DNA from: Vibrio sp. MedPE-SWchi
GTDB taxonomy: Bacteria > Pseudomonadota > Gammaproteobacteria > Enterobacterales > Vibrionaceae
Assembly: GCA_001874155.1 (NCBI GenBank)
Contig: MPDB01000004.1
Span: forward strand, 62,001-126,000
Length of the DNA stretch: 64,000 nt
Reading direction: 5' to 3'
Positions within the stretch are counted from its first letter, which is position 1, and every line of letters begins with the position of its first letter. Positions 4,225 to 63,743 of the stretch are shown in pieces. Position numbers and translations under genes: made by a program. The notes beneath the pieces are model-generated. The model was not told the origin of the DNA. It was given only the letters and a program-made list of their open reading frames with translations, and ran no database searches.

Positions 4225-4363
4225 ATTAACTTAGTAACAGTGAAAATAAAGATAAATAGACTTGTAGTTATACAGGTTTAGCAAGGCAATTACGGTCAGT
4301 GCTTCCAAATGAGATTAAGCTGGCCGCTTCGCAAGCACTTGCGAACTCACTAGGAGAGCAAAT

Positions 4364-5696: not shown

Positions 5697-5731
5697 AGCC
5701 CCGGTTCTCTCAAAGGAAAAGGGGCTTTTTC
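5697..5731 (+). terminator. Rho-independent terminator downstream of flagellin 1
   Basis: AGCCCC...GGGGCT followed by TTTTT. Confidence 0.6.
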
Positions 5732-5871
5732 TTGCCTGTTAACCAAGCAATTCACTTTCTTCGCCCCTCGGCAGGTTTGCTGGTTTCTTTAATCTATTTT
5801 TCCATTTATGTCGGTAACGTCTTGTTATTTCGTTATTTCCCAATTTAATTAATTTTATCTCCTCTTTTTTC

Positions 5872-5898
5872 TAAAGGAATTCTTTTCAAGGTCGCTAA
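5872..5898 (+). promoter_or_regulatory. Sigma-28 (FliA) promoter for flagellin 2
   Basis: TAAAGGAA-N11-GTCGCTAA compared with consensus TAAAGTTT-N11-GCCGATAA. Confidence 0.7.
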
Positions 5899-5996
5899 GA
5901 GTTTACTTTGAGAGAACTAATTGGTTTTTCGAGACGTCGGAAACCGTTCGGATAAGAAAATTTCCGCTCGCCGGAAAATCAATAGGAGAGACCACT

Positions 5997-7130
5997 ATGG
6001 CGGTTAATGTAAATACAAACGTATCTGCGATGACAGCTCAACGTTATTTGAACAGTGCAAATAGCGCCCAGCAAACATCAATGGAACGTCTATCATCAGG
6101 CTTCAAGATTAACAGCGCAAAGGACGATGCGGCAGGTCTTCAGATCTCTAACCGCTTGAACGTTCAAAGCCGAGGCTTAGATGTCGCAGTTCGTAATGCG
6201 AATGACGGTATCTCGATTGCACAGACAGCAGAAGGTGCAATGAACGAGACAACTAACATTCTACAACGTATGCGTGATCTATCACTTCAATCTGCAAACG
6301 GCTCTAACTCAAAATCTGAGCGTGTCGCTATTCAGGAAGAAGTCAGCGCACTTAACAACGAGCTAAATCGTATCGCTGAAACAACCTCGTTTGGTGGTAA
6401 CAAGCTGCTTAACGGTACATTTGATACTAAATCATTCCAGATTGGTTCAGATAACGGCGAAGCGGTGATGTTAACGCTAAACAACATGCGTAGTGATAAT
6501 GCGTTGATGGGTGGTAACAGTTATGTCGCTGCAAATGGCCAAGATAAAGATTGGTCAGTTCAGACGGGCGGTAACGACCTGACGATTGCTTTGACTGATA
6601 AGTTCGGTAACGCACAGAACCTCGCTATTGATGCGAAAGTTGGTGATGATATTGAACAACTTGCGACTTACATCAATGGTCAACAAGACATGATCAAAGC
6701 GTCTGTTGATGAAGATGGCAAACTGCAAATGTATGCTGACAACAACAAAGTTGAAGGTGATGTGACATTTGGTGGCAGTTTAGCGGGTGAACTTGCGATT
6801 GGTGGTCCAACAGCTGTTACGGTTGATACTATTGACGTAACGTCAGTTGGTGGCGCTCAAGAGTCTGTTGCAATTGTCGATTCAGCGTTGAAATTTGTTG
6901 ATAGCCACCGTGCTCAACTTGGTGCTTTCCAAAACCGATTTGACCACGCGATTAACAACTTAGATAACATTAATGAGAACGTTAACGCATCTCAAAGCCG
7001 TATCAAAGATACTGACTTTGCGAAAGAAACAACGGCATTGACTAAGTCTCAGATTCTATCTCAAGCGTCGAGCTCAGTACTTGCTCAAGCTAAACAAGCG
7101 CCAAATTCAGCGCTAGGTTTACTGGGATAG
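5997..7130 (+). CDS. Flagellin (paralog 2)
   Basis: [49 protein letters not shown]; canonical flagellin N- and C-terminal domains; AGGAG SD upstream. Confidence 0.97.
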
Positions 7131-7431: not shown

Positions 7432-7516
7432 TGGTGCGGTCGGAGAGACTTGAACTCTCACACCTTGCGGCGCCAGAACCTAAATCTGGTGCGTCTACCA
7501 ATTCCGCCACGACCGC
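7432..7516 (-). tRNA. tRNA-Leu (anticodon TAG)
   Basis: Minus strand GCGGTCGTGGCGGAATTGGTAGACGCACCAGATTTAGGTTCTGGCGCC...GACCGCACCA; CCA encoded. Confidence 0.96.
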
Positions 7517-7609
7517 AGCAAACTTTGTAGTTATATCGATGATTGGTGAGTCAATATAACGTTGTGCTCTTTGTTTTCGTTTAATACTCAAACCAAGAGT
7601 TGTAAATAG

Positions 7610-7684
7610 TGGCTGGGCTACCTGGATTCGAACCAGGGAATGCTGGCATCAAAAGCCAGTGCCTTACCGCTTGGCGATAGCCCA
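7610..7684 (-). tRNA. tRNA-Gln (anticodon TTG)
   Basis: Minus strand TGGGCTATCGCCAAGCGGTAAGGCACTGGCTTTTGATGCCAGCATTCCCTGGTTCGAATCCAGGTAGCCCAGCCA. Confidence 0.96.
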
Positions 7685-7733
7685 ACAAAATGTTTTAAAA
7701 TCTCAGTGAGATTTACAGACATTATCTGAATAA

Positions 7734-7818
7734 TGGTGCGGTCGGAGAGACTTGAACTCTCACACCTTGCGGCGCCAGAACCTAAATCTGGTGCGTCTAC
7801 CAATTCCGCCACGACCGC
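7734..7818 (-). tRNA. tRNA-Leu (anticodon TAG)
   Basis: Sequence identical to the copy at 7432..7516. Confidence 0.96.
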
Positions 7819-7868
7819 AGCAAACTTTGTGGTTATATCGACGATTGGTGAGTCAATATAACGTTGTA

Positions 7869-7945
7869 TGGTGGCTACTGCGGGATTTGAACCTGCGACC
7901 CCATCATTATGAGTGATGTGCTCTAACCAACTGAGCTAAGTAGCC
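7869..7945 (-). tRNA. tRNA-Met (anticodon CAT, elongator type)
   Basis: Minus strand GGCTACTTAGCTCAGTTGGTTAGAGCACATCACTCATAATGATGGGGTCGCAGGTTCAAATCCCGCAGTAGCCACCA. Confidence 0.95.
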
Positions 7946-7975
7946 AAAACAGTGTCTACACACTATTTTAATGTA

Positions 7976-8060
7976 TGGTGCGGTCGGAGAGACTTGAACT
8001 CTCACACCTTGCGGCGCCAGAACCTAAATCTGGTGCGTCTACCAATTCCGCCACGACCGC
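7976..8060 (-). tRNA. tRNA-Leu (anticodon TAG)
   Basis: Same 85-nt sequence as the other tRNA-Leu copies. Confidence 0.96.
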
Positions 8061-8126
8061 AGCAAGCTTTTACTCTAGCTAAGAGTGTAGTCATATCGAC
8101 GATTGGTGAGTCAATATAACATTGTA

Positions 8127-8203
8127 TGGTGGCTACTGCGGGATTTGAACCTGCGACCCCATCATTATGAGTGATGTGCTCTAACCAACTGAGCTAAGTA
8201 GCC
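8127..8203 (-). tRNA. tRNA-Met (anticodon CAT)
   Basis: Same sequence as 7869..7945. Confidence 0.95.
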
Positions 8204-8283
8204 ATCTTTTCGAGCGAGACAATATAATCAATCTCACTGCAAGTGTCACCCTCTTTTTCAAGATAAATGCCACTTTTAAAGTG

Positions 8284-8358
8284 TGGCTGGGCTACCTGGA
8301 TTCGAACCAGGGAATGCTGGCATCAAAAGCCAGTGCCTTACCGCTTGGCGATAGCCCA
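8284..8358 (-). tRNA. tRNA-Gln (anticodon TTG)
   Basis: Same sequence as 7610..7684. Confidence 0.96.
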
Positions 8359-8387
8359 ACAATGATATCAATTAAGATATCTCAATA

Positions 8388-8472
8388 TGGTGCGGACGGA
8401 GAGACTTGAACTCTCACACCTTGCGGCGCCAGAACCTAAATCTGGTGCGTCTACCAATTCCGCCACGTCCGC
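8388..8472 (-). tRNA. tRNA-Leu (anticodon TAG), acceptor-stem variant
   Basis: Acceptor stem GCGGACG...CGTCCGC; differs from the other three Leu copies by a compensated pair. Confidence 0.95.
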
Positions 8473-8528
8473 ATTATTTCCTAAAAACTCATGTTCGCAC
8501 ATAAATACAAAAATAAGTGCTTAGGAAA

Positions 8529-8605
8529 TGGTGGCTACTGCGGGATTTGAACCTGCGACCCCATCATTATGAGTGATGTGCTCTAACCAACTGAGCTAAG
8601 TAGCC
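8529..8605 (-). tRNA. tRNA-Met (anticodon CAT)
   Basis: Same sequence as 7869..7945; first gene of the cluster in the transcribed direction. Confidence 0.95.
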
Positions 8606-62501: not shown

Positions 62502-62528
62502 TCAAGGTTTGGAAAATAGTGCCGTTAA
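62502..62528 (+). promoter_or_regulatory. Sigma-28 (FliA) promoter for flagellin 4
   Basis: TCAAGGTT-N11-GCCGTTAA against TAAAGTTT-N11-GCCGATAA. Confidence 0.7.
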
Positions 62529-62609
62529 TAAAAATAACTTTAAAAGAACAGCTTGGTTTTTCGAGACATCGAAAACCTGAAATACCGAAAAATCAATTGG
62601 AGATATACC

Positions 62610-63743
62610 ATGGCAGTGAATGTAAATACTAACGTATCAGCGATGACAGCACAGCGTTACCTAAACAGCGCGAACAATGCACAACAAACATCAATGGAAC
62701 GTTTATCATCGGGCTTTAAGATCAACAGTGCAAAAGATGACGCTGCTGGCCTTCAAATCTCAAACCGATTAAATGTTCAAAGTCGTGGTCTTGATGTTGC
62801 CGTACGTAACGCAAATGACGGTATTTCAATTGCGCAAACTGCTGAAGGTGCAATGAATGAAACAACCAACATTCTGCAACGTATGCGTGACCTATCTCTA
62901 CAATCAGCAAACGGCTCTAACTCAAAGTCTGAGCGTGTAGCGATTCAAGAAGAAGTTAGCGCACTAAACAACGAACTTAACCGTATCGCAGAGACAACGT
63001 CTTTCGGTGGTAACAAGCTACTTAACGGCACGTTCGACACCAAATCATTCCAAATTGGTGCAGATAACGGTGAAGCAGTTATGTTGTCACTAAGCAACAT
63101 GCGTAGCGATAATGCGGAAATGGGCGGTACGAGCTACAGCACTACAAACGGTCAAGATAAAGACTGGTCTGTACAAGCAGGCGGCAGCGATTTATCAATG
63201 ACATTCAAAGACAAGTTCGGCCAAGACCAAGCGCTGACGATTAACGCTAAAGAAGGCGATGATATCGAGCAGCTAGCAACATACATCAACGGTCAACAAG
63301 ACTTCATCAAAGCGTCTGTGAACGAAGATGGTCAACTACAAATGCTTGCTGGTGCAAATAAAGTCGATGGCGATGTGGCATTTGGTGGTGCACTAGCGGG
63401 CGAACTTGGATTCGAAGCTGGCCAAGCGGTATCGGTAAACGACATTGACGTGACGTCAGTGGGCGGTGCTCAAGAGTCTGTTGCCATCATCGATACAGCA
63501 TTGAACTTTGTTGATAGCCACCGTGCAGAACTGGGTGCATTCCAAAATCGTTTTGACCACGCAATCAGCAACTTAGATAACATCAACGAAAATGTAAATG
63601 CGTCTAAGAGCCGAATCAAAGACACTGACTTTGCTAAAGAAACAACCGCATTGACTAAGTCACAAATTCTTTCGCAAGCATCAAGCTCTATTCTTGCTCA
63701 AGCGAAACAAGCACCAAACTCAGCACTAAGCCTTCTAGGTTAA
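62610..63743 (+). CDS. Flagellin (paralog 4; close homolog of the gene at 5997..7130)
   Basis: [44 protein letters not shown]. The 62553 track start runs through the conserved leader hairpin; SD GGAG precedes 62610. Confidence 0.97.

Follow-up and report, generated by a model that had tools for sequence, protein, structure and literature searches.

The mRNAs of two Vibrio flagellin genes, flaC-like and flaD-like, appear to begin with a cis-acting RNA leader that can adopt two alternative structures, a reading to which we assign a probability of about 0.5 from sequence comparison. In this two-state leader, one strand (arm A) would pair either with arm B, forming a bulged hairpin, or with arm C, directly ahead of the Shine–Dalgarno sequence (SD). 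The parts of this reading differ in strength. The flagellin leaders almost certainly carry an RNA element that is protected by evolution, and the compared sequences establish selection at the RNA level on A:B; A:C is supported as a conserved alternative pairing, but more weakly. We infer which state would be ON and which OFF, what would trigger the change and how expression would respond. An earlier note on this DNA had proposed that a single selected hairpin controls the stability or translation of flagellin mRNA, possibly as the target of a protein or a small RNA (sRNA). Its selected RNA-level element stands, given the genus-wide conservation, the covariation and a stem that is kept while its loop varies; its single hairpin probably does not, since arm A has a second conserved partner.

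Vibrio filaments contain several near-identical flagellins. Their regulation has been described mainly at the level of transcription, and by proteolysis in V. vulnificus (PMC8032703). Through a leader that spans the genus and is supported by covariation, two flagellin mRNAs would bring control at the RNA level into the flagellin hierarchy. The leader would also serve as a defined bait with which to capture a regulator from bacteria in which neither FliW nor FlbT was detected, and the model can be tested directly with a few point mutations.

Two flagellin leaders in the window

The window is a stretch of 64,000 nucleotides from Vibrio sp. MedPE-SWchi. The two hairpin sequences, GGTTTTTCGAGACGTCGGAAACC at 5923–5945 and GGTTTTTCGAGACATCGAAAACC at 62555–62577, lie exactly where the earlier note had read them, and each folds as it had described, with 9 bp, one bulged U and a 4 nt loop. 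The single stem difference between them is indeed a change from U.G to U-A; the loops differ too (GACG versus GACA). These two are the only matches in the 2.57 Mb genome (66% complete) when up to two mismatches are allowed, and a reversed-pattern control gave none. The predicted energies are −6.6 kcal/mol for the copy at 5923 and −7.2 kcal/mol for that at 62555, with folding z-scores of −1.2 and −3.1, respectively, the copy at 5923 being unconvincing on folding energy alone.

All of the features described here are on the plus strand. The first leader precedes flagellin 2 (5997–7130, 377 amino acids; Pfam Flagellin_N and Flagellin_C). Its sigma-28-like promoter (5872–5898), read from the sequence, consists of TAAAG (5872–5876), N14 and GTCGCTAA (5891–5898), and in relatives these boxes stand at an equal distance ahead of the leader. 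Leader comparison then reveals a conserved 5′-terminal block, ACTTTGAGAGAAC (5905–5917), the predicted first 13 or so nucleotides of the mRNA; the predicted +1 is placed at this block because of the position of the promoter. Arm A (TTGGTTTTTCGA; 5921–5932), delimited by sequence, alignment and covariation, is followed by the GACG loop (5933–5936; folding) and by arm B (TCGGAAACC; 5937–5945; covariation and folding), the 3′ side of hairpin A:B. Arm C (CGGAAAATCAA; 5972–5982), identified by covariation, folding and the position-7 search described below, lies directly ahead of the SD (AGGAG; 5984–5988).

The second leader precedes flagellin 4 (62610–63743, 377 amino acids; the same two Pfam domains), which is 87% identical to flagellin 2. 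Read in the same way from the sequence, its sigma-28-like promoter (62502–62528) comprises TCAAG (62502–62506), N14 and GCCGTTAA (62521–62528). A diverged copy of the 5′-terminal block, ACTTTAAAAGAAC (62537–62549; sequence and alignment), comes next, followed by arm A, again TTGGTTTTTCGA (62553–62564; sequence and alignment), and by the GACA loop (62565–62568; folding). Arm B (TCGAAAACC; 62569–62577) carries the compensating A and arm C (CGAAAAATCAA; 62586–62596) carries one as well, both recognized by covariation and the position-7 search; the SD is GGAG (62599–62602). Both SDs are those given in the earlier note, and the stem begins about 18–19 nt after the predicted sigma-28 start (+1 near 5905 and 62536), close to the distance that it had estimated.

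The genome holds five flagellin genes, in the order flgK–flgL–flagellin–flagellin and, elsewhere, flagellin–flagellin–flagellin. By inference from gene order in V. cholerae, the gene at 5997 would be flaC-like and that at 62610 flaD-like. The flaC-like leaders are longer than the flaD-like leaders and have an extra segment between arms B and C (5946–5971 in the window) of the type TTCGG..TTCCG, a potential small hairpin. Downstream, an array of nine tRNA genes (7435–8605, minus strand) separates the flaC-like flagellin from a ychF-like GTPase gene.

Distribution in Vibrio

Leaders were collected with a pattern on the 5′ block and the flagellin N-terminus. This pattern is anchored outside the hairpin and therefore does not presuppose the stem. 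It found the leader in 188 of the 228 genomes of the genus. Among the matches listed, the named records are all Vibrio or Vibrionaceae/Vibrionales and include V. mimicus, V. metoecus, V. anguillarum, V. furnissii, V. splendidus and V. diabolicus. A covariance model found the leader in 198 of 331 Vibrionaceae genomes, all of them Vibrio (198 of about 228) and nearly always with two copies per genome; under strict filters it found the leader in none of the 12 other genera of the family. Weak matches in model-negative Vibrio genomes (E values of 0.2–0.4) lie ahead of other genes and look like chance. The matches whose context was checked all precede flagellin starts, the exceptions being matches at contig ends with no visible start.

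The leader is present five times in each of three genomes, and the copies examined precede flagellin genes. In some species (L056, L057, L145, L147, L230–L235), three to five copies are found within flagellin arrays; these include copies with replaced loops of 5–18 nt and intact arms A, B and C.

Within 32 genomes, the 5′ block ACTTTGAGAGAAC is essentially confined to the two flagellin leaders in the sense orientation, and no exactly matching trans-encoded antisense or decoy RNA was found there.

Covariation of the arms

Side-by-side comparison of the leaders gives arm A (UUGGUUUUYCGA) two complements. With arm B (UCGRAAACC) it forms a local hairpin with one bulged base. With arm C (CGRAAAAUCAA), which stays directly ahead of the SD at 4 to 28 nt from B, it can form up to 11 contiguous pairs, and this pairing and the hairpin are mutually exclusive.

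Both pairings were measured on an alignment of 96 distinct leaders (A1) against 500 shuffles. In A:B, 98.4% of cells are paired and double changes occur at three pairs, in ten cells; on four of the five measures used, none of the 500 shuffles matches it, and on the remaining one, the count of double-change pairs, the figure is 1/500; it also beats every slid register on cells paired. A:C has 96.7% of cells paired and double changes at two pairs, and 46 of the 500 shuffles attain its covariation score, a weak result by the shuffle test alone. We also used a tree-based null, in which the parsimony changes of each column were redistributed 2000 times over the branches of a FastTree tree of the flagellin coding sequence (110 leaders). 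Here, A:B gave p = 0.0005, and A:C gave p = 0.003 for covariation and p = 0.001 for pairing. The gap at a6–c4 was placed by us and favours A:C there, so part of the signal at this pair rests on its placement; a7–c3 (p = 0.02) and a5–c5 (p = 0.016) are independent of that gap column. The covariation check on orthologous leaders that the earlier note had suggested thus found compensatory changes beyond the tree-based null. RNAalifold on the full leader alignment returned only the inner 4 bp, since there is little signal in columns that are conserved or in spacers that vary.

Position 7 of arm A, at which the two window copies bear a U, is the most informative. U7 occurs in 17 leaders of the 228 genomes; the facing base in arm C is A in 12 and G in five, and that in arm B is A in 13 and G in four. 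C7 combined with A, C or T in arm C was never found in the 228 genomes. Counted as distinct leaders, all 80 with C7 have G in B together with G in C, and those with U7 show all four B/C combinations (GG 3, AA 3, AG 3, GA 2); B and C therefore each follow A and are independent of one another. Fisher's test gives p = 1e-5 on distinct leaders, a value that is no true probability because the sequences are related. The A-containing C arms belong to several lineages, as judged by their differing spacers. In two leaders (L010 and one copy in L235), an A5 in arm A is matched by a U in arm C; in both, arm B keeps its A and can bulge A5 out. One group (G088, G089, G105, G122 and G139) has largely lost A:C in its flaC-like copy but has kept A:B.

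This last group suits the closest competitor of the two-state leader, a single-state hairpin in which only A:B matters, either as the place where an RNA-binding protein of the flagellar system attaches or by stabilizing the mRNA at its 5′ end, with C a translation-enhancing segment whose match to A is secondary. We regard this as a real possibility, yet clearly behind the two-state leader. It would account for A:B being the most strongly covarying element and for the wide retention of the single bulge on the 5′ side and of the GACG loop, and known analogues (FlbT, FljA and CsrA) bind flagellin leaders. It leaves unexplained why C changes only with changes in A, independently of B, and why C contains changes that pair with A5. 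Moreover, the loop is wholly replaced in several paralogues, unlike what would be expected of a site read through its loop, and a protein reading GACG as the general mechanism is disfavoured because diverged paralogues keep the stem around other loops. GACG kissing loops are known in retroviruses; dimerization of the leaders through such loops is speculation here, and some paralogues have no GACG loop.

Relation to known regulatory systems

Two-state cis-regulatory leaders, riboswitch-like or attenuator-like, work by alternative pairing. The Vibrio leader would be like them in that a single strand has a choice between two conserved partners that exclude each other, the second adjoining the ribosome-binding site, but it differs in having no recognized ligand pocket or terminator and no Rfam match. 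At the gathering score, Rfam 15 reports only tRNAs in the window, and around 5700–6050 and at the other flagellin loci it gives only weak sub-threshold matches. We found no description of the leader in the literature searched, chiefly open-access papers. By the gene that it would regulate, it resembles the flagellin leaders controlled by FlbT, FljA and CsrA, and it is a member of none of the systems tested.

FlbT acts on the 5′ leader of a Caulobacter flagellin mRNA (Anderson and Gober, 2000, via PMC8306008 and PMC3120886), for which the passages of these sources that treat it describe no arm with two partners. FlbT (PF07378) was found in none of 37 relatives including the present genome (66% complete), with a positive Caulobacter control. 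As outlined in the same two sources, FljA acts on the Salmonella fliC leader (Yamamoto and Kutsukake, 2006), a likeness in that one flagellin paralogue is controlled post-transcriptionally through its untranslated leader; the FljA system differs in being tied to fljB/fljA phase variation. In Escherichia coli, sigma-28-dependent sRNAs act on fliC (PMC10578931), which is again RNA-level tuning of a flagellin mRNA of the sigma-28 class, but they do so in trans and mostly within the fliC coding sequence (PMC10578931).

In Bacillus subtilis, FliW and CsrA control the translation of the flagellin hag (PMC6529632; review PMC8306008), and this takes place, as it would in Vibrio, at the ribosome-binding region of the flagellin's own leader. 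Most Vibrio leaders have three GGA motifs, one in each of arms B and C and one in the SD, through which a CsrA-type repressor could act. In V. cholerae, CsrA influences motility and the expression of flagellar genes, although the bound targets named in the relevant part of that report are flrC, rpoS and rpoN and not flagellin leaders (PMC7858070). The GGA of the SD is present in all leaders, but that of B and/or C is lost in U7 variants, for example in the flaD-like copy of the window (CGAAAACC and CGAAAAATC). CsrA is disfavoured as a general ligand because many U7 leaders lack these motifs, which are thus not kept across variants. FliW (PF02623), with which CsrA acts in Bacillus, was found in none of the 37 relatives, with a positive B. 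subtilis control and the present genome being only 66% complete. Altogether we consider CsrA-type repression improbable.

RNA or DNA element

The consensus inner part, TTTCCGA-GACG-TCGGAAA, is a nearly perfect DNA palindrome and the 5′ block adjoins the predicted start. The conserved sequence could thus be imagined as a palindromic operator, or as a downstream promoter element directly after the sigma-28 start. The loop, however, has 4 nt in 105 of the 110 distinct leaders (GACG in most) and 5, 9, 9, 15 and 18 nt in the other five, with the stem persisting around it; G.U pairs are tolerated; and arm C covaries despite a B–C distance that ranges from 4 to 28 nt. A DNA operator bound by a dimer is unlikely, as it would not tolerate such variable loops, G.U pairs or the variable distance to arm C, and we give the DNA-level explanation as a whole very little credit. 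Because the changes in the stem are compensated and the stem is kept around loops of 5–18 nt, selection acts on the RNA rather than on a DNA operator. With its conserved secondary structure and its compensatory changes within a 5′ UTR, the element classes, on sequence grounds, as a structured cis-regulatory leader.

Predicted energetics of the two states

In unconstrained folds of both window leaders, A:C forms and the hairpin does not. When the two states are forced, A:C is preferred in 73 of 95 leaders; the median preference at 37°C is −3.2 kcal/mol for the short flaD-like leaders and −0.4 kcal/mol for the long flaC-like leaders, the window copies having values of −3.8 (flaC-like) and −0.4 (flaD-like). 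In the short leaders at 37°C, the segment from arm C up to the SD is predicted to be 0.62 unpaired in A:B versus 0.10 in A:C, and the accessibility of the SD itself is similar in both states (0.50 versus 0.49). Direct sequestration of the SD by A:C, which we also considered, is absent from the ensemble calculation. Since the SD is about equally open in both states, the proposed block would act only through the segment that adjoins it.

For the two-state leader, these values suggest the following course. A:B would form first during transcription and would present the ribosome with a single-stranded segment ahead of the SD (ON). The other pairing, A:C, is usually of equal or greater stability and would then close this segment (OFF or low). 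The time available for refolding, the loading of ribosomes or a ligand would shift the balance between the two, which would set flagellin output, and the leader would in this way probably tune the amount of flagellin. Other bacteria have RNA thermometers, and a structured leader close to the ribosome-binding site might suggest one here; yet between 10 and 37°C the predicted accessibility of the SD shows only a modest rise and the preferred state hardly changes, which makes a thermometer still less credible than a DNA element.

Sequence conservation

Between species, the mean pairwise identity of the hairpin is 0.97 for flaD-like and 0.93 for flaC-like leaders, and that of the segment from arm C to the SD is 0.95 and 0.85, respectively. 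In the corresponding coding regions, identity at fourfold-degenerate positions is 0.52 (flaD-like) and 0.41 (flaC-like), and in the promoter spacer it is 0.40 and 0.35. Of the 49 fourfold-degenerate sites that the two window copies share, 28 differ, against two positions in the 23 nt hairpin, which bears out the argument of the earlier note against a recent duplication. Flagellin paralogues can exchange sequence and both leader copies are identical in some genomes, but a functionless similarity that stems from shared ancestry or from gene conversion between these genes can practically be dismissed in view of a hairpin that is 93–97% identical against 41–52% at fourfold sites and 35–40% in the promoter spacer, and of the compensatory changes.

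Other flagellin leaders

The motif UGAGAGAA is common to the 5′-proximal part of the flaB-, flaC- and flaD-like transcripts, shortly after the sigma-28 −10 box (5905–5917 in the window). It may possibly reflect a common reader or an effect of the initially transcribed sequence. The flaB-like leader, at about 126082–126173 of the contig (G000:C21) and just beyond the window, has a different hairpin, GATGTGCC..GTGAGGTGAGAGACAC..GGCACATC, with a conserved apical GAGGUGAGAGA and compensatory double changes at seven of nine pairs among 30 sequences (alignment A2); no Rfam family matches this leader at threshold. A broader and rather doubtful idea is that the leaders are paralogue-specific, with a metastable A:B/A:C switch on the flaC- and flaD-like mRNAs and the unrelated hairpin on the flaB-like mRNA, and that one flagellar factor would read UGAGAGAA, RNA structure thereby setting the order or ratio of the filament subunits.

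The flaA-like leader (4279–4363 in the window; alignment A3) is near-invariant, which could be explained by an enhancer on which FlrC acts at the DNA level, downstream of where flaA transcription starts. It contains two potential hairpins, CGGTCAG/CTGGCCG and TTCGCAAG/CTTGCGAA; its changes are one-sided only, and RNA structure there is a candidate.
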